From positions 1-50,736 of IMG/VR virus record IMGVR_UViG_3300008448_000130: 50,736 nucleotides of DNA; one strand, written 5' to 3'. The position numbers and the translations under genes were made by a program. This document shows, piece by piece, positions 13,896-38,951 of this stretch. The notes under the pieces were generated by a model that did no database searches, had not been told where the DNA came from, and worked only from the letters and a program-made list of their open reading frames with translations. This DNA is from a virus. The stretch's first letter is position 1. Every line of letters starts with the position of its first letter.

Positions 13896-14991
13896 ACATA
13901 TTGATGACGTTCTGCCCCACATTGCAGACAAACCCGAAATCGCAAGAATTGAAAGAGACGGGTACACCGTTCTCGATTACATCTATGCGGGCGAGAACAC
14001 CTTCGACAATCCGTTCGCGCGCGAATGTCGTGGTCTTAAATTCGACTCAAACGGCAATCTGATTGGTCGACCGTTTCACAAATTCTTCAATCTCAACGAG
14101 AAAGAAGAGACTCGATTCGAGAACCAAAACTGGAGTTCGCCTGTTATTGTAGCAAACAAGTGGGATGGTTCGATGATCCACCCTGCTCTTGTTAATGGCG
14201 AATTCGTTTTCATGACCCGTAAAGGTGTTACCGACGTAGCCATACAGGCTATGAACGAATGTGAGTATGACGTCGACGAGATGATCCGACTCATCAAAGA
14301 AGGGTTTACTCCAATCTACGAGTTTATCTCTCCTAATAACAAAATCGTTCTGCATTATGATAAACCCGAATTGATTCCGATCAATCTCCGTCATCGTGAA
14401 ACGGGGAAATACGATCACAGTTTCATGAAAAGTAATTTCTTAGATCTCAATCTTGACGAGATCTACTTTCGTAATTTCTTTGATCACCTTAAAGCCAAGA
14501 CTGGTATTGAGGGTGTGGTTGTCCAGTTTTACACTCCTGAGTATTCTCGTTTTATCAAATTCAAAGCCGATGACTATGTGGCCTTGCATAAGGTAATGGA
14601 CGAGACGACCCAAGAAAAGAACGTACTGGCCCTGATCATGGACGACAAGCTTGACGACGTTGTTCCTCTTATCGATCCAGCACGAGCAGAATACCTGAAA
14701 GAGTATGCTTCTATTGTTAATACTGAACTTCTTCATAATGCAAAGGAGTTTGTGAAATTTGTTGAAAAGAGAAAAACTTATTCGCAAAAAGATTTTGCTT
14801 TCATTGTGAAGAGATATCCTACCCAGCTTCATGGATTTATGTTCAAGGCAAGAGCTCTTGATAATTGTAATGTTTCTACAGTTCTTGTAATGTTCAAAGA
14901 GTATTTTAAGAAAACACTTACGACCCAAACCAAGGTTGATCAATGGAGGGAGTTTCTGGGAAATCCTGTTTTTAAGATGTCGGTTGAATAA
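13879..14991 (+). CDS. rnlA: T4 Rnl1-type RNA ligase (gp63-like)
   Basis: A 370-aa protein close to T4 Rnl1 (374 aa). Conserved blocks are ECRGLKF (49-55), FHKFFNLNE (66-74), the nucleotidyl-accepting lysine motif KWDGS (K94 to S98), YEFISPNNKIVLHY (147-160), EGVVVQ (211-216) and FIKFKADDYVALH (225-237). It seals 5'-phosphate/3'-OH RNA ends by ATP-dependent adenylylation. In T4 it repairs the tRNA cut by the host PrrC nuclease and also promotes tail-fibre attachment. The C-terminal 130 residues are an extra helical domain as in Rnl1. It lies between two tRNA genes and after an RMF-like gene, supporting an RNA-repair role. Confidence 0.92.
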   Translation: MFPVIKHIDDVLPHIADKPEIARIERDGYTVLDYIYAGENTFDNPFARECRGLKFDSNGNLIGRPFHKFFNLNEKEETRFENQNWSSPVIVANKWDGSMIHPALVNGEFVFMTRKGVTDVAIQAMNECEYDVDEMIRLIKEGFTPIYEFISPNNKIVLHYDKPELIPINLRHRETGKYDHSFMKSNFLDLNLDEIYFRNFFDHLKAKTGIEGVVVQFYTPEYSRFIKFKADDYVALHKVMDETTQEKNVLALIMDDKLDDVVPLIDPARAEYLKEYASIVNTELLHNAKEFVKFVEKRKTYSQKDFAFIVKRYPTQLHGFMFKARALDNCNVSTVLVMFKEYFKKTLTTQTKVDQWREFLGNPVFKMSVE

Positions 14992-25381: not shown

Positions 25382-27862
25382 ATGTCCGCATTCTACACAA
25401 ATGTCTCTAGGAGGAGCAACGATCTTCTCGTTAGAGGATTCGATGCAAACGGAAATCGATTCAACCGAAAGGTAAAGTATCAACCGTATCTGTTTATCCA
25501 ATCAAAGGATCAGAGCAAGTTCAAGACTCTTGATGACAAGCCTGTTGGTAAGATCGAGTTCGACTCGATGTCTGAGGCTAGAGATTTCCTGAAACAATAT
25601 GAGGGTGTTTCTGGGATGGAGATCTACGGTCTGACAGACTTTGTCTACGCTTACATCAACGATCGCTATCGCTCTCAGATCTCCTATGATCCAAAGTTGA
25701 TCCGAACAGTCTACATCGATATCGAGGTTTCATCCAAAGACGGATTCCCCGATATTGCACTAGCAAACAAACCTATCACGGCGATCACGATCTCATGGCG
25801 TGGTCGCAAACACGTATTTGGCCTGCACGATTTCAAGCCACACAAAGACGATGTTATCTACTATCATTGCAAAGATGAAGAAACGCTGCTTGCCAAGTTC
25901 ATCACATACTGGGAAGAGATTTCTCCCGACTGCGTTACGGGTTGGAACATCGAGTTCTTCGATATTCCTTATATCATCAACCGCATCAAGACTGTCTTTG
26001 ACGACAACGAAGCCAAGAGACTTTCTCCCTGGAAACTTCTGCGTGAGTATGAAGTTGAGATCAGGGGAAAGATGAACAGTGCTTATACTCCTGTCGGTGT
26101 CAACGTTCTTGACTATATCAACCTGTACAAGAAGTTCACCTATTCCCAGCAAGAATCATACTCCCTCAACCACATCTCTTTCGTCGAGCTTGGTGAGAAG
26201 AAGGTCGACTACTCCGAGTACGGAAGCCTGAATGATCTGTATGAAAAGAATCACCAACTGTTCATCGAATATAACATCAAAGACGTTGAGCTTGTCGAAC
26301 GACTTGAAGATAAGATGAAGCTGATCGAGCTTGTCTATGCTATTGCGTTCGACTCGAAGATCAACTTCGAAGATACGCTTGGTTCAGTTAAGCAGTGGGA
26401 CGTGATTATCCACAACTATCTTCTTGAACAGAACATCGTCATTCCCCAGTTCAAGAAAAAGCCTGAGAAAGAAATCGTTGGCGGATACGTAAAGGACCCC
26501 AAGATCGGTATGAGCGAGTGGGTTGTTTCTATGGACTTCAAGAGTCTGTATCCACACCTGATCATGACCTACAATATTTCTTCTGAGACCCTCGTTGGTA
26601 TGATTGAAGGTTTCCCATCAGTCGACGAACTCCTCAAGGGCGAGTTCCAGGCACCTGAAGACTACAGCTATTGTGCCAACGGTACATATTACTCCAAAGA
26701 GAAACTTGGATTCCTGCCTGCCCTGATGAAGAAGCTGTACGATGATCGTGCTGCTACTCAGAAAGAACTTAAGACGATCAAGAAAGAGTTCAACGAAACC
26801 AAGAACAAAGAACTTGAACGATTGATCTCTGCTCTCGATAATAGACAGAAAGCCCTGAAGATTAAACTAAACTCCGCTTACGGTGCGCTCGCAAACGTGT
26901 ACTTCAGGTGGTTCAACGCAGATATTGCCGAGGCTGTCACGACTTCTGGCCAGTTGGCCATTCGTTGGGTTGAACAGAGTATCAACCAATATCTCAATAA
27001 GACACTCGGCACCAAGAACAAAGATTATGTCATCGCGGTTGACACCGACTCCAACTATGTTACCCTTGATGAAATGGTCAAGAAGTTTCTTCCTAACGAG
27101 ACTGATAAGAACAAGATTGTGAACTTTATTGATAAGGTTGTTGAGCAGAAACTCAAGCCTTGTGTTGATGAAGCCTGCCAGAGACTTCATGAGTATATGT
27201 CTTCCTATGAACAGAAGCTTGAGATGAACCGAGAAGCTATTGCTGATCGTGCCATCTGGAAAGCCAAGAAGATGTACATCCTCAACATGCTTGACCTTGA
27301 GGGTATTCGTTTCGAGAAACCCAAACTCAAGATGATGGGCATTGAAGCGATCAAGTCTTCAACACCTACAGCATGCCGTCAGGCTCTCAAATCTGCCTTT
27401 GAGATTGTTATGAATAAGTCCGAAGAAGATCTGCATGCGTTCGTGGCTGATACCAAAGAACGTTTCCAGACTCTTCCGTTTGAAGACATTGCGTTCCCTC
27501 GAGGCGTCAAGGATATTGAGAAGTGGGAAGGTAAGAACGGAACTTACCTTTCTGGCACACCGATCCACGTCAAGGCTTCTATGATGTTCAATCAGATTAT
27601 TGACAAACTCAATCTTCAGAATAAATATGAGAAGATCGTCTCTGGTTCTAAGATCAAATATTCTTATATGAAAACTCCCAACAAGTACAATACCCAGGTT
27701 CTTGGTTGTCCGTCAGAACTTCCAAAAGAGTTCAAGCTTGACGACTTTGTGGATAGGGATATGCAGTTCAATAAAGGTTTCCTCGAACCACTTAAGAGCA
27801 TCACCGAGACCATCGGTTGGAATAATGAGAAAGTATCAACTCTAGAGGACTTTTGGTCATAA
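25382..27862 (+). CDS. 43: B-family DNA polymerase (T4 gp43)
   Basis: An 826-aa replicative polymerase with 3'-5' proofreading. Exonuclease motifs: YIDIEVSS (D113, E115), GWNIEFFDIPYI (N189, D194) and YNIKDVEL (Y297, D301). Polymerase motifs: A, MDFKSLYPHLI (D385); B, KIKLNSAYGALAN (497-501 NSAYG); C, VDTDSNYV (D554, D556). T4 gp43 is 898 aa; the compact size fits the cyanophage/alphaproteobacterial branch. It has its own consensus promoter and AAGAATAAG upstream. It ends in TAATG, overlapping a 30-aa membrane peptide, and is followed by uvsX and gene 41. Confidence 0.97.
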   Translation: MSAFYTNVSRRSNDLLVRGFDANGNRFNRKVKYQPYLFIQSKDQSKFKTLDDKPVGKIEFDSMSEARDFLKQYEGVSGMEIYGLTDFVYAYINDRYRSQISYDPKLIRTVYIDIEVSSKDGFPDIALANKPITAITISWRGRKHVFGLHDFKPHKDDVIYYHCKDEETLLAKFITYWEEISPDCVTGWNIEFFDIPYIINRIKTVFDDNEAKRLSPWKLLREYEVEIRGKMNSAYTPVGVNVLDYINLYKKFTYSQQESYSLNHISFVELGEKKVDYSEYGSLNDLYEKNHQLFIEYNIKDVELVERLEDKMKLIELVYAIAFDSKINFEDTLGSVKQWDVIIHNYLLEQNIVIPQFKKKPEKEIVGGYVKDPKIGMSEWVVSMDFKSLYPHLIMTYNISSETLVGMIEGFPSVDELLKGEFQAPEDYSYCANGTYYSKEKLGFLPALMKKLYDDRAATQKELKTIKKEFNETKNKELERLISALDNRQKALKIKLNSAYGALANVYFRWFNADIAEAVTTSGQLAIRWVEQSINQYLNKTLGTKNKDYVIAVDTDSNYVTLDEMVKKFLPNETDKNKIVNFIDKVVEQKLKPCVDEACQRLHEYMSSYEQKLEMNREAIADRAIWKAKKMYILNMLDLEGIRFEKPKLKMMGIEAIKSSTPTACRQALKSAFEIVMNKSEEDLHAFVADTKERFQTLPFEDIAFPRGVKDIEKWEGKNGTYLSGTPIHVKASMMFNQIIDKLNLQNKYEKIVSGSKIKYSYMKTPNKYNTQVLGCPSELPKEFKLDDFVDRDMQFNKGFLEPLKSITETIGWNNEKVSTLEDFWS

Positions 27863-27954
27863 TGAGAGAACCTGAGAAAAGTGAGATGGTCGTCGCTATG
27901 TTGATGGCTTTTACAATAGTAGTTATTGCAATCATAACGGAGTTGGTGGTATGA
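27862..27954 (+). CDS. 30-aa single-pass membrane peptide
   Basis: MREPEKSEMVVAMLMAFTIVVIAIITELVV: a charged N-terminus and one membrane helix. Its ATG overlaps the gp43 stop (TAATG) and its stop overlaps the next ATG (ATGA), so it fits exactly into the operon and is probably translated by coupling. The upstream ACTTTTGGTC gives a weak site. No family recognised. Confidence 0.5.
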   Translation: MREPEKSEMVVAMLMAFTIVVIAIITELVV

Positions 27955-28271
27955 AAGAAAGACAAGAAGCTTTTTTTGATTTCGGCTTTACATTAGAAGA
28001 TGAAACGGATATACTACAAAGAAGCCAGATTACAAATGATATGGATGAGCTTGTTGCCCAAGTAAATCTACTTAGAATGAAATTGAAGAGCATGAACCTT
28101 TGTGTTCATGATATGGGTGCTAAGATTAACCCACTTCTTACTAATCTGCTTAAAGATGCAGACACAAAACCAATTATCAATTGGCCAAATAGAAAAGAAA
28201 GAATCCAACAGTTCGCTAAATTGTTGGATAAAATTATTACCGAAGCCGACAGCATTCTAGAGGAAAATTAG
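27951..28271 (+). CDS. Hypothetical protein between gp43 and UvsX
   Basis: A 106-aa helical protein with a central coiled-coil-like stretch and a PIINWPNRKERI segment resembling proteins found beside uvsX in related phages. Start after CGGAGTTGGTG. It ends 1 nt before the uvsX start, so both are co-translated. A replication or recombination accessory role is suggested only by location. Confidence 0.7.
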   Translation: MKERQEAFFDFGFTLEDETDILQRSQITNDMDELVAQVNLLRMKLKSMNLCVHDMGAKINPLLTNLLKDADTKPIINWPNRKERIQQFAKLLDKIITEADSILEEN

Positions 28272-28272
28272 C

Positions 28273-29343
28273 ATGGCAAAGAAGAGTGACTTTCTAAGAG
28301 ACTTTATCGCAGAGATTGGCGATGAGAATACTACCCTTGCTGTTGATGGACAATCAGCAGGCGAGTTTTCTGGATTTGTTGACACGGGTTCATATGCACT
28401 CAATGCTGTTCTTTCAGGATCAATTCATGGCGGTATTGCTGATAATAAAGTAACTGGTTTCGCGGGCGAGTCTGCTACTGGTAAGACCTTCTTCGTTCTT
28501 GGTATCGTCAAGAACTTCCTTGATGCAAATGAAGATGGGTTTGTTGTTTACTACGACACCGAAGCAGCCGTCACAAAAGATATGATGGAAAGCAGGGGGA
28601 TCGATACTTCTAGGGTTGTTATCTCTGAACAGGAAACCATCCAGAAGTTCCGCCACCATGCTCTTAAGATCATCGACTCTTATGTGGCCAAGCCCGAGAA
28701 CAAGAGACCAAAGATGATGATGGTTCTCGACTCGCTCGGTATGATGTCTACGACAAAAGAACTTGAAGATTCTACTGAGGGTAAAGAAACTCGGGATATG
28801 ACCAAGGCCCAGGTAATCAAGGCAGCGTTCCGCGTTCTGACTCTTAAACTTGCCAGGGCCAAGATTCCCCTGATCATTACTAACCACGTGTATGCCGCTG
28901 TTGGTGCTTATGTTCCAACAAACGAAATCTCGGGTGGATCTGGTTTCAAATTTGCAGCAACAACAATTGCGATGCTTTCTAAGAAAAAAGATAGAGAGGG
29001 TACTGGCATTGTTGGTAACTTGATCACAGTCAAGATGTACAAATCTCGTCTATCAAAAGAAAACCAGCAAGTCCAAGTAAGACTTTCTTATGCAAGTGGT
29101 TTGGACAGGTATTATGGATTGGCGGAAATTGCTGAAGAGGCAGGCGTCTTCACAAAGGTCGGCAATAAGTTGAGGATGCCAGACGGCAAAACTATTTTTG
29201 AAAAAGCACTTAACCGCGAGCCTGAAAAGTATTATACTCAGGATGTTCTAGAAAAGATCGAAGCCCATGTCCACAAGAAATTCTCTTATGGAACTGGAGA
29301 TCTTGATACTGAAGCCGAAGAGGCATACGAAGAGGAAGAATAA
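28273..29343 (+). CDS. uvsX: UvsX RecA-like recombinase
   Basis: A 356-aa strand-exchange ATPase. Walker A is GESATGKT at 65-72; Walker B lies in MMMVLDSLGM; the L2-like region EISGGSGFKFAATTIAML and the acidic C-terminal tail (DTEAEEAYEEEE) are also as in T4 UvsX. It forms filaments on ssDNA for recombination-dependent replication and repair. Start after GAGGAAAATTAGC. It is followed immediately by gp41, as in cyanophage-like order. T4 UvsX is 391 aa. Confidence 0.95.
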   Translation: MAKKSDFLRDFIAEIGDENTTLAVDGQSAGEFSGFVDTGSYALNAVLSGSIHGGIADNKVTGFAGESATGKTFFVLGIVKNFLDANEDGFVVYYDTEAAVTKDMMESRGIDTSRVVISEQETIQKFRHHALKIIDSYVAKPENKRPKMMMVLDSLGMMSTTKELEDSTEGKETRDMTKAQVIKAAFRVLTLKLARAKIPLIITNHVYAAVGAYVPTNEISGGSGFKFAATTIAMLSKKKDREGTGIVGNLITVKMYKSRLSKENQQVQVRLSYASGLDRYYGLAEIAEEAGVFTKVGNKLRMPDGKTIFEKALNREPEKYYTQDVLEKIEAHVHKKFSYGTGDLDTEAEEAYEEEE

Positions 29344-30771
29344 ATGCTATCTGAGAGAATTGAAGACGCTATACTTTCGAACTTAATCAACAACGAAACT
29401 TACGCAAGAAAGGTTATCCCGTTTATTAAAGTAGAATATTTTCAAGAGCAGTCTTACAAAATTCTCTTCTCGCTTATTGACTCCTTTGTTGCCAGATATA
29501 ACAAGATCCCAACAAGGGAGTCGCTTCTTGTCGATCTTCAGACAATAAACAATATACCAGAGTCGACGTATAAAGATTTGGTGAAGTATATTTCTTCTAT
29601 CTCCAAATCAGAATATGAAGAAAGCTGGATTGTTGATAAGACTGAAGAGTTCTGCAAAGACAAAGCCTTGTACAATGCACTGATGCAGGCCATCAAGATT
29701 GTTGATGATGAGAAAACCAAAGGCAACCTTTCTGTCGGGACAATCCCAAAGATCCTTTCCGATGCGCTTGGTGTCTCGTTTGATAACAGTATTGGCCATG
29801 ACTTTCTTGACAATGCTGAAGAAAGATATGACTTCTATCATCTAGTTGAAAACAAGATCAAGTTTGATCTTTCTTTCTTCAATAAGATTACAAAGGGTGG
29901 ATTGTCCAAGAAGACTTTGAATATCATCATGGCATCAACAGGTGTTGGCAAAAGCTTGTTCATGTGCCACTGTGCAGCCAATAATCTTTCCGAAGGGCTG
30001 AACGTTCTTTACATCACACTTGAAATGGCCGAAGAACGTATTGCCGAGAGGATTGATGCAAACATCCTTGATATCACAGTTGACGAGCTTCATGAGCTTC
30101 CAAAAGAATCTTATCTTAAACGAATAAACAAGATCAAGAAAAAGACTGATGGAAAGCTGATCATCAAGGAATATCCTACTACATCTGTTGGTTCGGCAAA
30201 CTTCAGACACCTTCTGAATGAACTTGAACTAAAGAGAAACTTCAAGCCTGATATTATCTACATCGACTACCTTAACATCTGTACGAGTTCGAGGATCAAG
30301 AATATGACTGGAATCAACTCATATACCTTGGTCAAGACTATTGCAGAAGAATTGAGGGGTCTTGCAATTGAGTTTGGTGTTCCGATTGTTTCCGCAACCC
30401 AAACAAACAGAAGTGGATATGAGAACAGTGATATTGATCTCACAAACACCTCCGAGTCCTTTGGCCTGCCTGCTACCTGTGACATGATGTTTGCTCTTAT
30501 CTCGAACGAGCAGCTTGAATCTCTTAATCAGATTATGGTAAAGCAGCTGAAGAACAGATACAACGATCTAAACTACTACAAGAAATTCGTTATTGGTGTT
30601 GATAGGCCAAAAATGAAACTATACGATGTTGAAGAAAGTGCCCAAGAAGGTATCATCGACGAAAAGAATAAAAGAGACGATGATGTTCCTGTAATGGATG
30701 ACACAGAATTCGGCAGTCGTATGAATGATGATCCTGAGTATCGTAAGCAGAAAATGAGGAACTTCGCATGA
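29344..30771 (+). CDS. 41: Replicative DNA helicase gp41 (DnaB-like)
   Basis: A 475-aa hexameric helicase that moves 5'-3' on the lagging strand with primase gp61. N-terminal helical domain (1-150), then the RecA-like core with STGVGKS at 198-204, Walker B in PDIIYIDYLN and the QTNRSGYENSD block. Length equals T4 gp41 (475 aa). It abuts the uvsX stop directly (TAAATG) and overlaps the next small gene by 4 nt (ATGA). Confidence 0.95.
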   Translation: MLSERIEDAILSNLINNETYARKVIPFIKVEYFQEQSYKILFSLIDSFVARYNKIPTRESLLVDLQTINNIPESTYKDLVKYISSISKSEYEESWIVDKTEEFCKDKALYNALMQAIKIVDDEKTKGNLSVGTIPKILSDALGVSFDNSIGHDFLDNAEERYDFYHLVENKIKFDLSFFNKITKGGLSKKTLNIIMASTGVGKSLFMCHCAANNLSEGLNVLYITLEMAEERIAERIDANILDITVDELHELPKESYLKRINKIKKKTDGKLIIKEYPTTSVGSANFRHLLNELELKRNFKPDIIYIDYLNICTSSRIKNMTGINSYTLVKTIAEELRGLAIEFGVPIVSATQTNRSGYENSDIDLTNTSESFGLPATCDMMFALISNEQLESLNQIMVKQLKNRYNDLNYYKKFVIGVDRPKMKLYDVEESAQEGIIDEKNKRDDDVPVMDDTEFGSRMNDDPEYRKQKMRNFA

Positions 30772-32011: not shown

Positions 32012-32043
32012 GCCCCGCAGGGTTCGCTCTGCGGGGCTTTTTT
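32012..32043 (+). terminator. Intrinsic terminator after the phosphoesterase
   Basis: GCCCCGCAG / CTGCGGGGC stem (32012-32037) with an 8-nt loop and six Ts. It isolates the upstream genes from the small-gene array. Confidence 0.9.
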
Positions 32044-32104
32044 GGCCTATTACCCTACGCAAAAGAGGGGCTTTAGTGAAAAAAGATGACGGTTAATGAA
32101 AAAA

Positions 32105-32179
32105 ACTGAATAAAATCAGTAAAACATTACCAAGATTTAATGTTGGAGGTGTTTACTTTCTCCTCCAAAAGCGTAGAAT
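32105..32179 (+). promoter_or_regulatory. Array promoter copy 1 with upstream palindromes
   Basis: In order: ACTGA-ataaaa-TCAGT (32105-32120), AACATTA with TAATGTT, GGAGG with CCTCC spanning the -35, then TTTACT (32152-32157), a 16-bp spacer and TAGAAT (32174-32179). The same ordered set recurs at 35857-35931. The palindrome over the -35 box looks like an operator or an alternative sigma/activator site. Confidence 0.75.
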
Positions 32180-32185
32180 GGTGGG

Positions 32186-32530
32186 ACTTGAGAGCGGCCC
32201 AGACACTTTAGTGGCCGATTTCGCCTTGTACCGAAAAAGTCCCTCGCCAGTAACGGGCGTGAAAAACGCGGGAAACTCTTCGGGCTTGTATGTGAAATGA
32301 CTAGCTCATCAAGCCGCTGTTTGACATTGTGGAGAGATTGACTGGCCTACCGCTCTAGGTAGCCCATGAAGCGCACAGGGCTCTGACCCAAGCTGCCAGC
32401 GACAAAGTTACCATCGTGCGGTAACGCTTCAAAACACGACTTGCTCATTTTTGGGCGCACATATTAGTCGACTGAGAGACGGACCTGAAAAGGTGGAGTC
32501 AGCGAACGTTGACCTGGTGTGTGCGTCCTA
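32186..32530 (+). ncRNA. Long structured leader RNA, copy 1
   Basis: About 345 nt between the promoter and the first small gene, without a useful reading frame. Stems visible: CGGCC/GGCCG near 32195-32218, GCGT-gaaaa-ACGC, GGCTTG (32283-32288) with CAAGCC (32310-32315), CTACC/GGTAG (32347-32362), GTTACC/GGTAAC (32407-32425), and an outer CGCACA (32456-32461) with TGTGCG (32520-32525) enclosing ACCT-GAAA-AGGT. Part of it (32318-32362) is conserved in copy 2 at 35994-36038 with compensatory changes. It may be a regulatory leader, antiterminator RNA or stable RNA. Confidence 0.6.
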
Positions 32531-32551
32531 ATGTGAGCAAGGAGAAAACTC

Positions 32552-32701
32552 ATGATTACCTGGTTTCAAGTTGGGTACTTTATTGCGACTCAAAACATCG
32601 AGGTGTTGATTCGCTCCCTCGGTTTGAAAGAAGACCAAATTGGGGATGTTCTTAGCGGGTACCACTTCGGTTACCTGACGCAATACCCTGACTACGACTA
32701 G
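32552..32701 (+). CDS. Hypothetical 49-aa protein, first gene of the array
   Basis: MITWFQVGYFIATQNIEVLIRSLGLKEDQIGDVLSGYHFGYLTQYPDYD. AAGGAGAAA precedes the ATG. Segments like SGYHFGYLTQ look folded. It is followed by the first array hairpin. No family recognised. It is shorter than a usual gene cutoff, but its start signal and position at the head of the array support it. Confidence 0.6.
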   Translation: MITWFQVGYFIATQNIEVLIRSLGLKEDQIGDVLSGYHFGYLTQYPDYD

Positions 32702-32710
32702 TGCACTTTC

Positions 32711-32732
32711 GCCCAGCAGAAACCTGCTGGGC
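32711..32732 (+). repeat. Array hairpin 1
   Basis: GCCCAGCAG / CTGCTGGGC with AAAC loop, then TTAAGTCGTAG and the ribosome-binding site of the next gene. No T-run. Confidence 0.8.
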
Positions 32733-32761
32733 TTAAGTCGTAGTGAATGGAGAAAAATCAC

Positions 32762-33058
32762 ATGACTGCTATCCTTCCGACTGGCCAAAGAATGAACCCT
32801 TCGCATCCGCAAGATGCTGAGTACTTTGACCCAGGTCAAGTCGCCTACATTGTCCGTGACGGTGAAAAGATCCGCGTTTGGACTTCGTTCGGCGACCTTG
32901 GTGAACGTTGGGCCCTTGGCACCAACCACATCGCCAAACACGATCAGACGCTGAGGACCCTCGGGTTTTTCACGGTGATCGGCAAGGTTGTGTTTGCCAC
33001 TGGAGAAAAGATTGGGGTTGTTCCTAACAGGAAACTTTCCCACTGCGTCTTCAAGTGA
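32762..33058 (+). CDS. Hypothetical array protein, 98 aa
   Basis: MTAILPTGQRMNPSHPQDAEYFDPGQVAYIVRDGEKIRVW...: a small beta-rich protein. The in-frame ATG at 32747 belongs to the repeated ATGGAGAAA ribosome-binding element, so 32762 is the start. No family recognised. GC content appears higher than in the replication genes. Confidence 0.7.
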   Translation: MTAILPTGQRMNPSHPQDAEYFDPGQVAYIVRDGEKIRVWTSFGDLGERWALGTNHIAKHDQTLRTLGFFTVIGKVVFATGEKIGVVPNRKLSHCVFK

Positions 33059-33066
33059 CCTACTTA

Positions 33067-33088
33067 CCCCAGCAGAAACCTGCTGGGG
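33067..33088 (+). repeat. Array hairpin 2
   Basis: CCCCAGCAG / CTGCTGGGG with AAAC loop, followed by TAGAGTCGTAG. Identical to hairpins at 33970, 34993 and 38769. Confidence 0.85.
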
Positions 33089-33119
33089 TAGAGTCGTAGT
33101 TAGCAACAAGGAAAAAACT

Positions 33120-33365
33120 ATGAGCTTCGAAAATTATATCGTCCCCGTTTCCATCGAAGATGGTTATCGGTATGACCTGCGCAAAACGGGTCGAATGGTT
33201 GGCACTGCTATGCTCGAAGACGGGCTTTGGGTTGCCACTCCCTACGAACAGATACGTGACTGCCACGTCAAGCCTGTTCCGGAAAAGACCATGACGTTCA
33301 AACGGCTTGGAGCCGCTGAATACTATCTGCTGGCTCTCGTCTTTGACGGCGATGACTACTACTGA
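33120..33365 (+). CDS. Hypothetical array protein, 81 aa
   Basis: MSFENYIVPVSIEDGYRYDLRKTGRMVGTAMLEDG...: start at 33120 after CAAGGAAAAA; the upstream frame extension runs through a hairpin and the previous gene and is rejected. Small alpha/beta protein ending AAEYYLLALVFDGDDYY. No family recognised. Confidence 0.65.
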   Translation: MSFENYIVPVSIEDGYRYDLRKTGRMVGTAMLEDGLWVATPYEQIRDCHVKPVPEKTMTFKRLGAAEYYLLALVFDGDDYY

Positions 33366-33371
33366 CCCAAA

Positions 33372-33393
33372 CCCCAGTGGAAACCCACTGGGG
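33372..33393 (+). repeat. Array hairpin 3
   Basis: CCCCAGTGG / CCACTGGGG with AAAC loop: the stem differs from hairpin 2 by paired changes, so base pairing is preserved while the sequence varies. Confidence 0.85.
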
Positions 33394-33421
33394 CCAAGTC
33401 GTAGTGAATGGAGAAAATCAC

Positions 33422-33682
33422 ATGAAACTTTCTATGTCTGACATCCTCATCATCATCACTGACGCTGAATGGCGTGCCTTTGATGCTTCAGATTATGCCG
33501 CCTTCGCTGGCGTCGCGGCTGAAGATAACCCGATGATCGCTGAAGACGAAGAACTGGAAACGATCTATATCATTTCTGGTGACTCGTTTTCTGTCATTGG
33601 GCCAAGCGGAACTGAATACAACTATCACCTTCAGGTGGCTAGTGCTGAGGTTCTTCCTGGTTTTGACGACTATCTCTCCTGA
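33422..33682 (+). CDS. Hypothetical array protein, 86 aa
   Basis: MKLSMSDILIIITDAEWRAFDASDYAAFAGVAAEDNP...: acidic. Start at 33422, 5 nt after ATGGAGAAAATC; the earlier in-frame ATG at 33377 lies in the hairpin. No family recognised. Confidence 0.65.
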   Translation: MKLSMSDILIIITDAEWRAFDASDYAAFAGVAAEDNPMIAEDEELETIYIISGDSFSVIGPSGTEYNYHLQVASAEVLPGFDDYLS

Positions 33683-33688
33683 CAAAAA

Positions 33689-33710
33689 CCCCTGCCCAAA
33701 GTGGCAGGGG
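33689..33710 (+). repeat. Array hairpin 4
   Basis: CCCCTGCC / GGCAGGGG with CAAAGT loop, followed by TAGAGTCGTAG. Confidence 0.85.
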
Positions 33711-33739
33711 TAGAGTCGTAGTTAACATGGAGAACTAAT

Positions 33740-33961
33740 ATGACTGTTTCTGTTGAGAAGATTGTTGAACTCGCCAGCAAAGCGGGTCTTGATCTGACTG
33801 GTCGTCTGACGCGATCAGAAATGAAACGTGTTGTGCTTCATCACTACGACGAGAAACATCGAAAGGCGTACGCCGAAGGGCTTCGTGATCTCGTCTGGGT
33901 GACTCAAGCGGACACTGATCTGCTTGACGCCCTTGAAGTTAACAGCTTTAAGAAACGGTAG
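33740..33961 (+). CDS. Hypothetical array protein, 73 aa
   Basis: MTVSVEKIVELASKAGLDLTGRLTRSEMKRVVLHHYDEKHRKAYAEGLRDL...: an all-helical basic protein; the first 45 residues could form a helix-turn-helix-like unit, but no family is recognised. Start after ATGGAGAACTAAT, the repeated array initiation element. Confidence 0.7.
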   Translation: MTVSVEKIVELASKAGLDLTGRLTRSEMKRVVLHHYDEKHRKAYAEGLRDLVWVTQADTDLLDALEVNSFKKR

Positions 33962-33969
33962 CCTACTTA

Positions 33970-33991
33970 CCCCAGCAGAAACCTGCTGGGG
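33970..33991 (+). repeat. Array hairpin 5
   Basis: Same stem and loop as hairpin 2 (CCCCAGCAG / CTGCTGGGG). Confidence 0.85.
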
Positions 33992-34021
33992 TCAAGGCAT
34001 TGTGAGAATGGAGAAAATCAC

Positions 34022-34426
34022 ATGACCATCGAATCGCTTAACGACCTCATGGACGTTATTGAATCTGGCGCTGAAGACCTCGTTCTTCAATGCGAGCATG
34101 TTCGCGATCTGAGCACTCTCGGCCTTGACGAACGGGCCACTTACGGCGGTCTTTGGGTTGATACCCAAAACGAAGAGTTCATCGCCTGTAAGGCGAGTGA
34201 CGACCGCGTCCTCCAGTATTACGGTGGGTTTGAATATATCGACAAAGAGTACCGCAAGGAACTCGGCGTTTATGTATTCTACCTCGCTGAGCCGGATGAA
34301 GAAGGCCGAGTTAATGGCTGCTTCGAGCGCATGAAGATGTCCAAAATGACACCTGAAGAGCGTAAGAAATACGAAGAAGAGAAAGAAGCTAGAGAAGAAC
34401 GCCGCTACAATTGGCGGCATCGCTGA
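34022..34426 (+). CDS. Hypothetical array protein, 134 aa
   Basis: MTIESLNDLMDVIESGAEDLVLQCEHVRDLSTLGLDERATYGGLWVD...: a folded N-terminal two-thirds and a charged helical C-terminus (MTPEERKKYEEEKEAREERRYNWRHR). Start after ATGGAGAAAATCAC. No family recognised. Confidence 0.7.
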   Translation: MTIESLNDLMDVIESGAEDLVLQCEHVRDLSTLGLDERATYGGLWVDTQNEEFIACKASDDRVLQYYGGFEYIDKEYRKELGVYVFYLAEPDEEGRVNGCFERMKMSKMTPEERKKYEEEKEAREERRYNWRHR

Positions 34427-34432
34427 CCTTTA

Positions 34433-34454
34433 CCCCTGTCCAAAGTGGCAGGGG
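34433..34454 (+). repeat. Array hairpin 6
   Basis: CCCCTGTC / GGCAGGGG with CAAAGT loop, followed by TTTTGGCGTAG. The short T-run could give partial termination. Confidence 0.8.
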
Positions 34455-34483
34455 TTTTGGCGTAGTTAGCAAGGAGAACTAAT

Positions 34484-34699
34484 ATGGATTATGTAGTTGA
34501 CAACGCTGCTATGGGTCGAGCCAAGGTTTGGTTCTATGAACAAGAAGAAACCAAACGTCCTAACCCCTGCGATACCTGCAAATTCGCTGAGCGCTGTGAT
34601 GCAAACGGCACGGACTGCTTTGCTTTCCGTCGCTGGACTTACAACGGTGACTATAACGACAAACAGGTCGACCGACTTACTCGTCCTTTTGAGGTTTAA
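34484..34699 (+). CDS. Small four-cysteine protein
   Basis: A 71-aa protein with NPCDTCKFAERCDANGTDC (C-x2-C-x5-C-x6-C), a probable zinc or other metal site, then FAFRRWTYNGDYNDKQVDRL. Start after AAGGAGAACTAAT. Similar short Cys-knot proteins occur in phages, but no function is known. It ends 2 nt before the next start. Confidence 0.7.
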   Translation: MDYVVDNAAMGRAKVWFYEQEETKRPNPCDTCKFAERCDANGTDCFAFRRWTYNGDYNDKQVDRLTRPFEV

Positions 34700-34701
34700 G
34701 A

Positions 34702-34920
34702 ATGAAATATACGATGTTTGATTCTGAAGGCCGATCATGGGAAATGGAAACACTTCCCCGTTCGGTAACCCCAAACTTCATCGGTATGACCGAAGAAGAA
34801 AAACAGAAAATGAGAAAAGAATATGACACGCAAAGAACTAGAAGTTTACGCCAAAGAAAAGATGTACCAAGCGATGGGGGCAGTAATGGCCCAATCGACT
34901 GTGGCGTTGACTCTGACTGA
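34702..34920 (+). CDS. Hypothetical 72-aa protein, C-terminal part uncertain
   Basis: The first 40 residues (MKYTMFDSEGRSWEMETLPRSVTPNFIGMTEEEKQKMRKEY) look like a real protein. The remaining 32 residues are basic, Gly/Ser-rich and overlap the next gene by 98 nt in another frame, so they may be read-through of a broken or overlapping frame. Start follows TTTTGAGGTTTAAG. Confidence 0.5.
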   Translation: MKYTMFDSEGRSWEMETLPRSVTPNFIGMTEEEKQKMRKEYDTQRTRSLRQRKDVPSDGGSNGPIDCGVDSD

Positions 34921-34984
34921 AGTCTTAGACTTGCTCGGAGTATACGAGCTCGTTCGTGAGACTAACAAAGAAGAACGATATTGA
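34823..34984 (+). CDS. Hypothetical 53-aa helical protein in overlapping frame
   Basis: MTRKELEVYAKEKMYQAMGAVMAQSTVALTLTEVLDLLGVYELVRETNKEERY: a plausible helical protein. It overlaps the previous frame by 98 nt; GAGAAAAGAAT gives a start signal. Either two genes overlap or one ancestral gene has a frameshift. Confidence 0.5.
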   Translation: MTRKELEVYAKEKMYQAMGAVMAQSTVALTLTEVLDLLGVYELVRETNKEERY

Positions 34985-34992
34985 GACCTTTA

Positions 34993-35014
34993 CCCCAGCA
35001 GAAACCTGCTGGGG
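34993..35014 (+). repeat. Array hairpin 7
   Basis: Same stem and loop as hairpin 2. Confidence 0.85.
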
Positions 35015-35043
35015 TAGAGTCGTAGTTAACATGGAGAACTAAC

Positions 35044-35484
35044 ATGACTGTTGTCATTTGTGACACCTATTCCGACCTCCACAAAGACGTTTACGGGTTT
35101 CGTCCCCGCAACGTCCACTTTGAGACACAAGAAGAGTTTGACGCTGAGTACGATAGGCTCTGCCGTCAGCTTGAGGTTGTTATCAAAGAAGAAAGACAGG
35201 CCGAGTTGAATAACCAAAAAGAGCTCAAGCGGCGCATTCGTTCGCTTATGGCATCTCACTCTATTGATGCCCTGACGGCTCTTCGTTGGGATTTCGAAGC
35301 CTTTGGCTGTGACTCGGGCTACGGTTGGGATGAATACTGCTATACCCTGAATATTGGGTACAGGTTCGGCTATATTCTCAAAAGCCGAGGCATTCTTCCC
35401 AGCCCATCGACCAATCACCGAGATTGGCAAGAACGTTCTCGTGAGGACTATCTTGCTGAATTCGGTTATGATGATGGTCCGTAA
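35044..35484 (+). CDS. Conserved phage protein with 'HKDVYGFRPR' motif
   Basis: A 146-aa protein. The N-terminal segment DTYSDLHKDVYGFRPRNVHF is a motif found in many unrelated large phages (Y.D.HKD.HG.RPR). The middle is a charged helix (residues about 35-70) and the C-terminal half is compact, with YGWDEYCYTLNIGYRFGYILKSRG. Function is unknown. Start after ATGGAGAACTAAC. Confidence 0.75.
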   Translation: MTVVICDTYSDLHKDVYGFRPRNVHFETQEEFDAEYDRLCRQLEVVIKEERQAELNNQKELKRRIRSLMASHSIDALTALRWDFEAFGCDSGYGWDEYCYTLNIGYRFGYILKSRGILPSPSTNHRDWQERSREDYLAEFGYDDGP

Positions 35485-35494
35485 CTGCCTGCTA

Positions 35495-35516
35495 CCCCTG
35501 CTCAAACGAGTGGGGG
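35495..35516 (+). repeat. Array hairpin 8 (degenerate)
   Basis: CCCC...GGGG with inner CTC/GAG around AAAC; less regular than the others, followed by TATCAGCGTGTC. Confidence 0.6.
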
Positions 35517-35546
35517 TATCAGCGTGTCTAAAAATGGAGAACTAAT

Positions 35547-35822
35547 ATGAACGGTGAACTTCAACTTCTTGAAGAAGAAACCATCGGTGGATTTCGCTAT
35601 GTCAATAGCGTCACCAAATCGCCTGTTGGAACTATCATGTGGAAACGTCTCTATGATGGCAACGATGGGTGTTATTGGAAAGTCGAATCGTTCGACGAAT
35701 ACATGGGAGAGTCAAGATTCTTCCAATCACTGACGGCAGCTAAATATTACCTCGCTGCCTTTGCCACCGAAGCATGGGAAAAAGAGAAGGCTGAAATAGC
35801 CGCTCAGAGCAAAATTCCCTGA
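35547..35822 (+). CDS. Hypothetical array protein, 91 aa
   Basis: MNGELQLLEEETIGGFRYVNSVTKSPVGTIMWKRLYDGNDGCYWKVESFDEYMG...: a beta-rich N-terminal part followed by a C-terminal helix (SLTAAKYYLAAFATEAWEKEKAEI). Start after ATGGAGAACTAAT. It is the last gene before the second array promoter. Confidence 0.7.
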   Translation: MNGELQLLEEETIGGFRYVNSVTKSPVGTIMWKRLYDGNDGCYWKVESFDEYMGESRFFQSLTAAKYYLAAFATEAWEKEKAEIAAQSKIP

Positions 35823-35856
35823 AAATCAACCAAATAATTTGCTTTCCGTAGAAAAA

Positions 35857-35931
35857 ACTGAATAAAATCAGTAAAACATTACCAAAATTTAATGTTGGGA
35901 GGCTTTACTTTCTCCTCTAATACGGTAGAAT
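35857..35931 (+). promoter_or_regulatory. Array promoter copy 2 with upstream palindromes
   Basis: Near-identical to 32105-32179: ACTGA/TCAGT palindrome at 35857-35872, AACATTA...TAATGTT, GGAGG/CCTCT over the -35, TTTACT (35904-35909), 16-bp spacer, TAGAAT (35926-35931). Confidence 0.75.
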
Positions 35932-35937
35932 GGTTGT

Positions 35938-36060
35938 GTTCTGGAAGGGCTCAGTGACTATCGCGGCCTGCCTTCGGGCGCTCCCAGTTCCAATGTTTGA
36001 AATTGTGAAAAGATTGACGCGTCCACCGCTTTAGGTGGCGCACACTAAATCTCCAACCTT
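35938..36060 (+). ncRNA. Structured leader RNA, copy 2 (short form)
   Basis: A leader of about 120 nt. CTGG...CCAG encloses a region with CCTTCGGG; then the 25-nt block 35994-36018 matches copy 1 at 22 of 25 positions, followed by CCACC/GGTGG (36023-36038), where copy 1 has CTACC/GGTAG, a compensatory pair change. The flanking GCG/CGC replaces TGG/CCA in copy 1. It lacks the extra 3' domain of copy 1. Confidence 0.6.
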
Positions 36061-36061
36061 A

Positions 36062-36082
36062 CCCCAGCACAAAGTGTTGGGG
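36062..36082 (+). repeat. Array hairpin 9
   Basis: CCCCAGCAC / GTGTTGGGG with AAA loop (one GU pair), followed by TCAAGGCGTAG. Confidence 0.8.
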
Positions 36083-36124
36083 TCAAGGCGTAGCTGACTG
36101 TCAGCATTTAAGGAGATACAAAGT

Positions 36125-36349
36125 ATGGCTAAGTCTCGCGTTCAACGCATCCGTTCCCTCGCCAACGCTTTCGAGCGCATCCGCGTCGGAGTGATCATGA
36201 CCGATACTCTGCTGAACACCTACTTCGACAACAAGGCTACCGAGATTGAAGCGTTCAACGCTGACCTTGGTGACGCCCTGACGACGAAAGAGGAAATCGC
36301 CGAAACGACGGAAACGGTTCGCGCCGCCAAAAAGCGCCGCAAGAACTAA
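36125..36349 (+). CDS. Hypothetical helical array protein, 74 aa
   Basis: MAKSRVQRIRSLANAFERIRVGVIMTDTLLNTYFDNKATEIEAFNADLGDAL...KKRRKN: helical with basic ends. AAGGAGATACAAAGT gives a strong start. First gene behind the second leader RNA. No family recognised. Confidence 0.7.
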   Translation: MAKSRVQRIRSLANAFERIRVGVIMTDTLLNTYFDNKATEIEAFNADLGDALTTKEEIAETTETVRAAKKRRKN

Positions 36350-36357
36350 TCCTTCCA

Positions 36358-36379
36358 CCCCCAGCCAAAGTGCTGGGGG
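36358..36379 (+). repeat. Array hairpin 10
   Basis: CCCCCAGC / GCTGGGGG with CAAAGT loop, followed by TTTTGGCGTG; may act as a weak terminator. Confidence 0.8.
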
Positions 36380-36419
36380 TTTTGGCGTGTCCAGCATTCC
36401 GCTGGTAAGGAAATGAAAT

Positions 36420-36614
36420 ATGAAAAACGTTGCGAAAAAAGCCAAGCTTCCGCTTTTCGTTATCCAGCACACCAACACTGTTGCTGGTTCTTCGATGAAG
36501 GGAACTAAGTTCAAACTCAGCTACCTTCGTCTTGAGGACGCTGAACGTTCTTCGGCCTACCTGACTTCGATCGGCGTTGACCATAAGCTGGTTGCGCCGC
36601 GAGTCGCCGCCTAA
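36420..36614 (+). CDS. Hypothetical array protein, 64 aa
   Basis: MKNVAKKAKLPLFVIQHTNTVAGSSMKGTKFKLSYLRLEDAERSSAYLTSIGVDHKLVAPRVAA: small and basic, probably alpha/beta. Start after TAAGGAAATGAAAT. No family recognised. Confidence 0.65.
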   Translation: MKNVAKKAKLPLFVIQHTNTVAGSSMKGTKFKLSYLRLEDAERSSAYLTSIGVDHKLVAPRVAA

Positions 36615-36639
36615 CCTACCGAAACGACTAATTAGATCA

Positions 36640-36661
36640 CCCCAGCGAAAACTCGCTGGGG
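36640..36661 (+). repeat. Array hairpin 11
   Basis: CCCCAGCG / CGCTGGGG with AAAACT loop, followed by TAGAGTCGTAG. Confidence 0.85.
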
Positions 36662-36689
36662 TAGAGTCGTAGCTAGAATGGAGAAACTC

Positions 36690-37559
36690 ATGCTGCTTCG
36701 AATATTCGGAGTAATTCTTATCGTAGCTGGCTTCGGCATGGCTGCGATTTCGGGTTATCTGGCTTATTTCGGTTTTGAACACACCATCAAACTACCACTA
36801 ATCGGTCTGATCGGTCCCTTCGTGGCCCTTTCGCTGGCGTCTCTTGGCGTTGCTGTGGAAATTGCTTTCCGCCGCAAGAAGTGGTTGGCCTTCGCGCCGC
36901 TGTTCGTTCTGATGGTTGTTGCAGGTCTGGTCGATAAAAACAGCGGCGAAATCGCCCTGAAGAATATCGTCACAGAAGCGTCCCAAGGTGATTCTGACCG
37001 AAACACTGCCTATAACACGGCTCTTTCTACGAAAGCCGATCTTGAAAAACAGATCAAAGACCTTGAGGCTGAAGACAGGGTCATGTCTAAGTCGCTCGCT
37101 GCGACTGCTACTGAGGAAGACATTAAAGAGGCTCAACGAAAACTGCTGAGCCTTGGCCTCTACGTCGACGAGACTGGCAAGCCCATGGCGATCGACGGGG
37201 ACCTTGGTCCTATTACTGCCCTTGCTATCACGCAGCGCGGTAAGGTTGTTATCGAGGAACTGAGTGAAGCTCGTAACGATCTAAAAGAAGCGACGGCAAC
37301 TATCGCTTCGGGAGCCTCCATCGGTGAAGCTCCTTTCACTCTCCATCAAGCTGAACTTTATGCTCTGATGATCACCATCCTTTCTGTTGTGTTTGCTTTT
37401 GCAGGCTCGTTTGTCTACGGTGGCTTCGGTGATGAACCGAACATCGAAGAAGAACTCGATGACCTTGAAGAAGCGGCTGACAAGATCGGCGAGAATATCC
37501 TGCAGCTTGCAGAATATCTCGGTGTTCAGAACGGCGAAAAGCTTCAGAAACGTGGATAA
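36690..37559 (+). CDS. Inner-membrane protein with periplasmic peptidoglycan-binding-like segment
   Basis: A 289-aa protein. Three N-terminal membrane helices (about residues 3-25, 37-58, 66-81), a charged coiled-coil stretch, a segment at about 142-184 (IKEAQRKLLSLGLYVDETGKPMAIDGDLGPITALAIT) with the PG_binding_1 pattern (A..LL...G.Y......DG..GP.T..A), then a fourth membrane helix (about 222-243) and an acidic tail. With the N-terminus inside, the middle domain is periplasmic, where peptidoglycan is. The ATG at 36678 is part of the repeated ATGGAGAAA element; 36690 is used. It could remodel the envelope, block superinfection or affect lysis timing; none is shown. Confidence 0.7.
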   Translation: MLLRIFGVILIVAGFGMAAISGYLAYFGFEHTIKLPLIGLIGPFVALSLASLGVAVEIAFRRKKWLAFAPLFVLMVVAGLVDKNSGEIALKNIVTEASQGDSDRNTAYNTALSTKADLEKQIKDLEAEDRVMSKSLAATATEEDIKEAQRKLLSLGLYVDETGKPMAIDGDLGPITALAITQRGKVVIEELSEARNDLKEATATIASGASIGEAPFTLHQAELYALMITILSVVFAFAGSFVYGGFGDEPNIEEELDDLEEAADKIGENILQLAEYLGVQNGEKLQKRG

Positions 37560-37568
37560 CGTCCCTTA

Positions 37569-37590
37569 CCCCTACGCGAAAGCGTGGGGG
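37569..37590 (+). repeat. Array hairpin 12
   Basis: CCCCTACGC / GCGTGGGGG with GAAA tetraloop, followed by TTTTGGCGTG. Confidence 0.85.
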
Positions 37591-37620
37591 TTTTGGCGTG
37601 TCTAATAAATGGAGAACTAC

Positions 37621-37857
37621 ATGGAAGCGACTTATCAACAAATCCAGGAAACTATCTACGCCATCGGTACCGCTCGTCAGATGAACGGTGAAGAATGGCA
37701 ACGGTGTGTTCGTGGCTGGGGTGGTGAAAACTACCACAGCGAAGTCATAAAGAAGCGTGGCGAAAAGCTTCGCGAGCTTCAGACTTTCTGGGAAAACATG
37801 CTGGTAGAAAAAACTAAAAACTACTACATGAATGACATCGCCAAGATTCCAGTATAA
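37621..37857 (+). CDS. Hypothetical array protein, 78 aa
   Basis: MEATYQQIQETIYAIGTARQMNGEEWQRCVRGWGGENYHSEVIKKRGEKLREL...: helical. The ATG at 37609 lies in the ATGGAGAAC ribosome-binding element, so 37621 is chosen. No family recognised. Confidence 0.7.
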   Translation: MEATYQQIQETIYAIGTARQMNGEEWQRCVRGWGGENYHSEVIKKRGEKLRELQTFWENMLVEKTKNYYMNDIAKIPV

Positions 37858-37864
37858 ACCTTTA

Positions 37865-37886
37865 CCCCAGTGGAAACCCACTGGGG
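37865..37886 (+). repeat. Array hairpin 13
   Basis: Same stem as hairpin 3 (CCCCAGTGG / CCACTGGGG, AAAC loop), followed by ATTTGGCGTG. Confidence 0.85.
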
Positions 37887-37913
37887 ATTTGGCGTGTCCA
37901 ATGGAGAAGACAA

Positions 37914-38270
37914 ATGCTCATGATCAACCGCAAACGCATCCGCAACGCTTTCAAGTATTTCCTCGCTGAAAAGCAGGACCACTTGGCTGACAAAGCTGGA
38001 ATGTCCGCGACGATCGAAAAATACGCTGTAGACGGTCAGGTCGCCCTGGTCGTCTGGCAAATGGACTGTGATTGCTCTAGCTGGACCTCAAAGGTTCTGG
38101 TTAAGGCCACGGTCGTCCATGTCGGAAAGGCTCTCGATAACATCTACAACGGTGCTGAGGGGCCAGTCCGCTGGCATATCGACAACCCCTCGGTTGTCGT
38201 TAATCGCAACTCCCGCGACCATGCCCTAGAGGCTTATGAAGACGGTCACGCCCACAGCGTGTCCTACTGA
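37914..38270 (+). CDS. Hypothetical array protein, 118 aa
   Basis: MLMINRKRIRNAFKYFLAEKQDHLADKAGMSATIEKYAVDGQVALVVWQMDCDCSSWTSK...: an N-terminal helix then a beta-rich domain, with CDCSSW and a final HAHSVSY. Start after ATGGAGAAGACAA; a second ATG 6 nt later is possible. No family recognised. Confidence 0.7.
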   Translation: MLMINRKRIRNAFKYFLAEKQDHLADKAGMSATIEKYAVDGQVALVVWQMDCDCSSWTSKVLVKATVVHVGKALDNIYNGAEGPVRWHIDNPSVVVNRNSRDHALEAYEDGHAHSVSY

Positions 38271-38278
38271 ACTGCTAA

Positions 38279-38298
38279 CCCCAGCCAAAGTGCTGGGG
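38279..38298 (+). repeat. Array hairpin 14
   Basis: CCCCAGC / GCTGGGG with CAAAGT loop, followed by TTTCAGCAGTG. Confidence 0.85.
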
Positions 38299-38331
38299 TT
38301 TCAGCAGTGTGTAACATGGAGAAACCTACAC

Positions 38332-38760
38332 ATGACGACCTACACCACTTTCAACAAAGCCACCCTTGCCACGCTTCGCAAAGAGCTCAACCAAGTGCTC
38401 GCGAAATTCGGCGATGAGTCTGGCCTGATGTTGACGATCGGGAACATTCGTTTCGCTACCGACGGCTCTACTATGCATACGCGCCTTGACGCCCACGTCA
38501 AAGGCAAGTTGTCTGATTCTGCCGTCCAGCTGGGCCAAACCCCAGCTTTGATGAAGGTTCTTAAAGACAACAAGATGGGTGACACGTTCGTCTCGCCGAC
38601 TCAAGGCGAGATCACCCTGCTTGACTATCGTGCTCGTTCGCACAAATACCCGTTTGTCGGGCGCGCGAAGAACGGCAAGATGTTCAAGTTTTCGTTCTCG
38701 CAAGTGATTGCTGGGCAGTCCCCAGTAAACGTTGCTCGAATGCTTGCAGCGAAACGATAG
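38332..38760 (+). CDS. Conserved phage protein of unknown function, 142 aa
   Basis: MTTYTTFNKATLATLRKELNQVLAKFGDESGLMLTIGNIRFATDGSTMHTRLDA...: resembles a family seen repeatedly in large phages (F.K..L..LR.E....LA..G...G........I.F......). An N-terminal helix followed by beta strands; LLDYRARSHKYPFVGRAKNGKMFKF is the best-conserved-looking part. Start at 38332 after ATGGAGAAACCTACAC. Function unknown. Last gene of the array. Confidence 0.7.
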   Translation: MTTYTTFNKATLATLRKELNQVLAKFGDESGLMLTIGNIRFATDGSTMHTRLDAHVKGKLSDSAVQLGQTPALMKVLKDNKMGDTFVSPTQGEITLLDYRARSHKYPFVGRAKNGKMFKFSFSQVIAGQSPVNVARMLAAKR

Positions 38761-38768
38761 CCTACTTA

Positions 38769-38790
38769 CCCCAGCAGAAACCTGCTGGGG
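38769..38790 (+). repeat. Array hairpin 15
   Basis: Same stem and loop as hairpin 2, followed by ATTTGGCGTGTAG. Confidence 0.85.
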
Positions 38791-38898: not shown

Positions 38899-38925
38899 AC
38901 TTTAACGCCACCAAGGAAAAAGAAA

Positions 38926-38951
38926 CCCTCCAGTACGCTGGAGGGTTTTTT
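38926..38951 (+). terminator. Intrinsic terminator ending the array
   Basis: CCCTCCAG / CTGGAGGG with TACG loop and six Ts. The preceding AAA makes it usable in both directions. Confidence 0.9.

Follow-up and report, generated by a model that had tools for sequence, protein, structure and literature searches.

Two operon leaders in an uncultivated virus carry, at an equal place after the promoter, the boxA of alphaproteobacterial ribosomal RNA (rRNA) operons, followed by a hairpin kept by compensating base changes; the arrangement recurs in three virus lineages. Here, we report these leaders from IMG/VR record IMGVR_UViG_3300008448_000130 (50,736 bases, analyzed whole and termed the window) and propose that each is probably an rRNA-operon-type antitermination signal placed close to its promoter. 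An earlier, sequence-only reading of the same DNA had described two homologous promoter-plus-leader RNAs with compensatory changes, RNA structure, and an additional domain in the first copy, all of which stand; it had missed that a shared 25-nucleotide (nt) block contains boxA, and its suggestion of "antitermination or ligand response" is narrowed here to a specific prediction, antitermination by host Nus factors.

Results

The window encodes T4-like replication genes (DNA polymerase [PHROG 262], UvsX-like recombinase, DnaB-type helicase, and RNA ligase). Because its polymerase is at most ~47% identical to those of isolate phages (best matches, marine T4-like cyanophages), this marine phage is assigned to a divergent T4-like lineage that has no cultured representative among the isolates searched. 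DNA similarity identified no isolate phage resembling the window and returned short chance matches only. Relatives were recovered with a pattern from the promoter-leader core (G001 and G002, which are one virus, and G003) or with a helicase query (L075, L081, and others), and three lineages were compared: the window and G003; G001/G002; and L075/L081 with L153, L157, and L159. Matches in L145, L154 to L156, L158, L160, and L161 were not counted because they were minus-strand or coding. Two boxA leaders, in conserved order, were found in all three lineages where the sequence reached far enough. Leaders 1 of the window and G001 share 85% identity over 611 nt, more than the neighboring DNA polymerase, helicase, and phosphoesterase genes (64 to 72%).

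The boxA of leader 1, CTGTTTGACATTGTG (positions 32317 to 32331; all leader features are on the plus strand), is the alphaproteobacterial rRNA boxA. It overlaps the 25-nt block (32318 to 32342, TGTTTGACATTGTGGAGAGATTGAC), which matches its counterpart in leader 2 (35994 to 36018, TGTTTGAAATTGTGAAAAGATTGAC) at 22 of 25 positions, as first described. The rRNA-type boxA is exact in leader 1 of the window and in both G001 leaders; window leader 2 departs from it (ATGTTTGAAATTGTG, 35993 to 36007, two mismatches to the 15-nt form), and its counterparts in G001 and L075 are exact (TGTTTGACATTGT). Conservation in the leaders is highest in this single-stranded 15-nt boxA, not in a stem.

Searched against the genome collection, TGTTTGACATTGTNNAGAGA (from the phage leaders) gave six matches, three of them in rRNA spacers before 23S in Mesorhizobium and Aminobacter. 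Within that class (Alphaproteobacteria), TNTTTGACATTGT was found in 82 of 190 sampled genomes, often, in the loci read, 126 to 370 nt before 16S or 156 to 274 nt before 23S rRNA; the remaining matches in the sample were coding or unplaced. In the complete genome G032, each of two operons has one copy before 16S and one before 23S (four in all), with GC preceding as in leader 1, and 58 genomes of its order yielded 26 matches to the 15-mer GCTGTTTGACATTGT versus 0 for the reversed control. The 25-nt block is read as containing boxA because the rRNA-operon position of the match is that of boxA, the NusB/S10 site. Published work describes binding of boxA by NusB/NusE and also its use beyond rRNA (PMC5725501; PMC4807359). 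The published consensus, GYTCTTTAANA, is gammaproteobacterial (PMC5725501; PMC4807359) and differs from GCTGTTTGACA at positions 4 and 8 only.

Downstream of boxA, both copies fold into a hairpin, B, called by covariation (leader 1, TGG.CTACC/GGTAG.CCA, 32343 to 32366; leader 2, GCG.CCACC/GGTGG.CGC, 36019 to 36041). The compensatory swaps seen earlier, CTACC/GGTAG for CCACC/GGTGG and TGG/CCA for GCG/CGC, were thus confirmed. Stem-breaking changes were looked for in the related phages: across five distinct versions from the three lineages, both partners change in 4 of the 8 pairs (T-A/G-C; G-C/C-G; T-A/C-G/A-T; A-T/T-A/C-G) and no pair is disrupted, which bears out selection on RNA structure. 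All pairs present are standard, and two versions lack one inner pair. Hairpin B of G001 leader 2 was paired by hand (RNAfold suggests a somewhat different pairing), so its two inner-pair types weigh less; the four varying pairs stay without that version. The loop is partly conserved (GCTCTA, GATCTA, GCTTTA, GCCTA). Leader folding energies were unremarkable (z, −0.2 to −1.6), and structure was therefore judged by comparison. Upstream of boxA, hairpin A of leader 1 (CGGCC/GGCCG, 32195 to 32217) was identified by folding and recurs in G001 and in the second leaders; that of window leader 2 (35946 to 35969) comes from alignment with leader 1 and L075 and is less well supported than hairpin B. Hairpins A and B lie 125 nt apart in leader 1 and ~50 nt apart in leader 2, with boxA between them. 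An Rfam 15 search of the leaders returned no family at gathering score or at an E value of 10.

The promoter module, first noted at 32105 to 32179 and 35857 to 35931, is a 117-nt direct repeat (32100 to 32216 and 35852 to 35968; 79% identical) with an 83-nt core that is 89% identical (E value within the record, 1.8e-26). Promoters were called by consensus and conservation. Promoter 1 (32152 to 32179; −35 TTTACT, 16-nt spacer, −10 TAGAAT) and promoter 2 (35852 to 35931 with its upstream region; −35 at 35904 to 35909, −10 at 35926 to 35931) have identical elements and spacing, and the spacing is equal in the G001 promoter (TTTACA/TATACT) and in L075. The A/T-rich region upstream of promoter 1 (32100 to 32151, repeated at 35852 to 35903) contains two short dyads (ACTGA..TCAGT and CATTA..TAATG) and may be an UP element or operator; its ACATTAC-AA-RTTTAA core is present in relatives as well. 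An intrinsic terminator (32012 to 32037, plus strand) lies directly upstream of promoter 1. Each boxA falls between the promoter and the first gene, in the leader part of the predicted transcript. Leader lengths agree with the earlier estimates of ~365 nt (first start codon at 32552) and ~185 nt (36125). A plasmid search with the 50-nt core gave chance-level matches in a coding gene only.

Other viral contigs carry the motif too: GCTSTTTGACATTGTG occurred in at least 119 stretches, compared with 9 for the reversed pattern (at least 13-fold). Of 80 loci read, 45 lay outside open reading frames (ORFs) of at least 100 amino acids (aa), versus 22% of random positions (P = 2e-11), and the 80 fell into 50 groups with unrelated flanks, 28 of which had a noncoding member. 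A few of these matches are host DNA, since L169, at least, looks like a host rRNA leader. Several boxA leader types recur in unrelated viral contigs (L162 to L241), e.g., GCTSTTTGACATTGTGAAT..GAGCCGTGGGCC..AAAGGAGTC, and in L239, boxA directly precedes a transfer RNA (tRNA)-like sequence. N-padded boxA queries against 50,697 isolate records found it only in Lentibacter (3) and Caulobacter (8) phages, two groups whose hosts are all Alphaproteobacteria, each match being weak (E value, about 1). In Lentibacter phage ICBM1, boxA stands ~175 nt before the first gene, 3' of a promoter-like sequence. In the Caulobacter phage CcrRogue record (2664 to 2681; L281, ~2600 to 2630), boxA GCTCTTTGACATTGTG precedes an annotated start codon by ~10 nt, in the terminal repeat, an arrangement closer to that of suhB. 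No paper linking boxA with alphaproteobacterial phages was found in the open-access literature; the paper on GafZ antitermination of the Caulobacter gene transfer agent describes a Nus-linked system and does not mention boxA.

The additional domain proposed for the first copy is real, given covarying stems and the identity of leader 1 with G001. It spans 32368 to 32442, with a closing stem (GAAGCG/CGCTTC) and two hairpins (GGG/CCC and GTTACC/GGTAAC), and is followed by an invariant CAAAACACGACTT. The L075 counterparts differ and stay complementary (GGGGC/GCCCC, CGCTGGG/CCCAGCG, and GTCAGC/GCTGAC, respectively). A candidate pseudoknot in leader 1 (TCGTG/CACGA) was rejected: it fits the window and G001, but L075 has just GTG/CAC. 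A long stem, CTTGCTCA/TGAGCAAG (32440 to 32541), encloses a ~70-nt folded element (GCGCACA..TGTGTGC) in which no tRNA was recognizable. The equivalent L075 stem, TTGTTGCA/TGCAACAA, contains the 5' half of a tRNA and an entire tRNA (anticodon CAT), with a GIY-YIG-like reading frame between them (MYTVYKITNLVNQKYYIGVHKT...; 14016 to 14700). In the more distantly related T4-like contig L085, a tRNA cluster is preceded by TTGCTGTTTGACATTGTTGG and a hairpin; the locus (3089 to 3912) reads boxA, UUCG hairpin, unassigned ~150-nt structured RNA, and tRNA-Ile, -Pro, -Glu, and -Lys. A boxA followed by untranslated RNA and tRNA is suggestive of rRNA operons, by analogy. Leader 1 as a whole showed no similarity to host rRNA operons in 61 genomes of one alphaproteobacterial order, a search that had no positive control.

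The first genes after leaders 1 and 2 encode 49 aa (32552 to 32701, plus strand; no Pfam match) and 74 aa (36125 to 36349, plus strand), and the protein of the second gene in the leader 1 operon had no relatives when used as a query. Ten operon ORFs scanned against Pfam had no match save a weak peptidoglycan-binding domain in one. The small-gene operons (32711 to 38790, plus strand) have G+C-rich hairpins between genes (CCCAGCAGAAACCTGCTGGG type, without a U-run), each preceding GTCGTAG, GGCGTAG, or GGCGTGT and then a ribosome-binding site. These cassettes start directly 3' of leader 1 and its first gene and occur nowhere else in the window; a strong intrinsic terminator (38923 to 38948, plus strand; stem of 11, then a U-run) lies 3' of the last one. 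In G001 and L075, cassette hairpins are likewise confined to regions downstream of boxA leaders, a correlation expected if the leader serves the array. The arrays of the window, G001 (25638 to 30519, reverse complement), and L075 (15016 to 18173) all consist of small genes set apart by near-identical hairpins plus GTCGTAG, GGCGTAG, or GGCGTGT. Gene order is shuffled between the window and G001 with joints at cassette hairpins, which looks like cassette exchange through hairpin repeats. Elsewhere, the mostly plus-strand genome fragment has a minus-strand ORF of 2,315 aa (3512 to 10459) without a PHROG match.

Discussion

The leaders share with rRNA-operon antitermination (boxA, NusB-S10, NusA, NusG, and SuhB) the boxA sequence, its promoter-proximal site, and, in leader 1, L075, and L085, structured RNA and tRNA-type cargo downstream. 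Unlike rRNA operons, they head protein-coding operons, have another sequence and a hairpin 3' of boxA, and contain no rRNA.

An N-type nut site, at which boxA and hairpin B (as boxB) load Nus factors together with a phage N-like RNA-binding protein, is an unlikely alternative. The succession of boxA and a small hairpin in a phage leader after a promoter is that of lambda and lambdoid nut sites, the loop is partly conserved, and many small ORFs could encode an N-like protein, N proteins being short and divergent. However, no N-like gene was identified among the ten operon ORFs scanned, the phage is T4-like, and its boxA is an exact match to the form in host rRNA operons, as would be fitting if host factors suffice. 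The covarying hairpin B does follow boxA closely (11 nt 3' of it), but its loop is GCTCTA/GCTTTA, not the GNRA-like pentaloop of lambda boxB.

We hold two further explanations to be improbable. One is a put-like leader, as in phage HK022, in which two nascent-RNA hairpins bind polymerase directly and make it termination resistant without Nus factors. The pair of homologous leaders, one behind each promoter and each forming stem-loops A and B, resembles putL and putR (PMC9378689), and hairpin B covaries. put is a compact double hairpin of ~70 nt acting without a dedicated trans factor, whereas the distance between A and B in either leader departs from that compact form, and the part most conserved here is boxA rather than the stems; direct polymerase binding might still be an additional activity. 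The other, given about the same low credence, is that boxA represses translation or titrates NusB-S10 in host takeover. boxA in the suhB leader represses suhB, an effect that persists with up to 100 nt to the ribosome-binding site (PMC5725501); such genes likewise place boxA outside rRNA. They are, however, bacterial and repressed, while the phage leaders, proposed here to confer operon-wide read-through, head whole operons, not one gene, with boxA ~117 and ~220 nt from the start codons. It is hardly credible that the block is a −35 element or a chance resemblance: it contains TTGACA, the consensus −35 hexamer, but has no −10 within 16 to 18 nt downstream in any copy, is conserved in every lineage, has the sequence of rRNA boxA, and, as a 14-mer, is expected by chance 0.0004 times in the window.

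Several points weigh against an rRNA-type signal. Window boxA 2 differs from GCTGTTTGACATTGTG at three places, and the function of the alpha-form boxA is argued from its rRNA-operon position, the published consensus being from another class. The block 3' of boxA, AGAGATTGAC, is phage specific, and the boxC-like GGAAGGGATGCGC that follows boxA in alphaproteobacterial rRNA leaders is absent from all leaders read in this phage family; the phage leader therefore reproduces the rRNA signal only in part, although we know of no evidence that this motif is essential. With non-rRNA sequence at that place, a phage-specific factor is possible. In E. coli, rRNA is Rho resistant even when Nus factors are missing (PMC4807359), so the importance of the complex may, by analogy, lie more in RNA folding than in antitermination.

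From sequence, we infer NusB-S10 binding, antitermination of the rRNA type, the host, and the timing (early or middle). The host is likely an alphaproteobacterium, probably with a boxA of the GCTG type. Its RNA polymerase would start at the phage promoter, and the nascent leader would expose boxA to host NusB-S10, which with NusA, NusG, and probably SuhB would render the elongation complex termination resistant. nusB is absent from the window, so host factors would be needed, though the record may be incomplete. Hairpin B probably helps present boxA or forms a second contact, like boxB or boxC. The modified complex would stay with the polymerase through the hairpin-separated small-gene operon, from 32552 to 35822 for leader 1 and from 36125 to the terminator at 38923 for leader 2. 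Leader 1 would have the most to gain, because its untranslated RNA runs to 365 nt and includes additional structured cargo.

More tentatively, leader 1 could be a phage-built imitation of the head of an rRNA operon (promoter and A/T-rich upstream element, Nus-recruiting boxA, cotranscriptionally folded domain, and long processing stem with tRNA or tRNA-sized cargo, then modified polymerase running through the cassette array), with use of the host boxA general among alphaproteobacterial phages of many kinds; we rate this broader idea as possible, with the odds against it. Phage use of boxA is textbook knowledge for lambda, but there it belongs to a system that depends on N. The host rRNA boxA is carried here in the leaders of protein operons by a T4-like lineage and, apparently, by many unrelated alphaproteobacterial phages. 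If functional, it would give phages an N-independent route to rRNA-grade processivity and tie phage gene expression to the availability of NusB-S10, and the 16-nt motif would help to locate operon heads in phages known only from sequence and give a clue to the host group.

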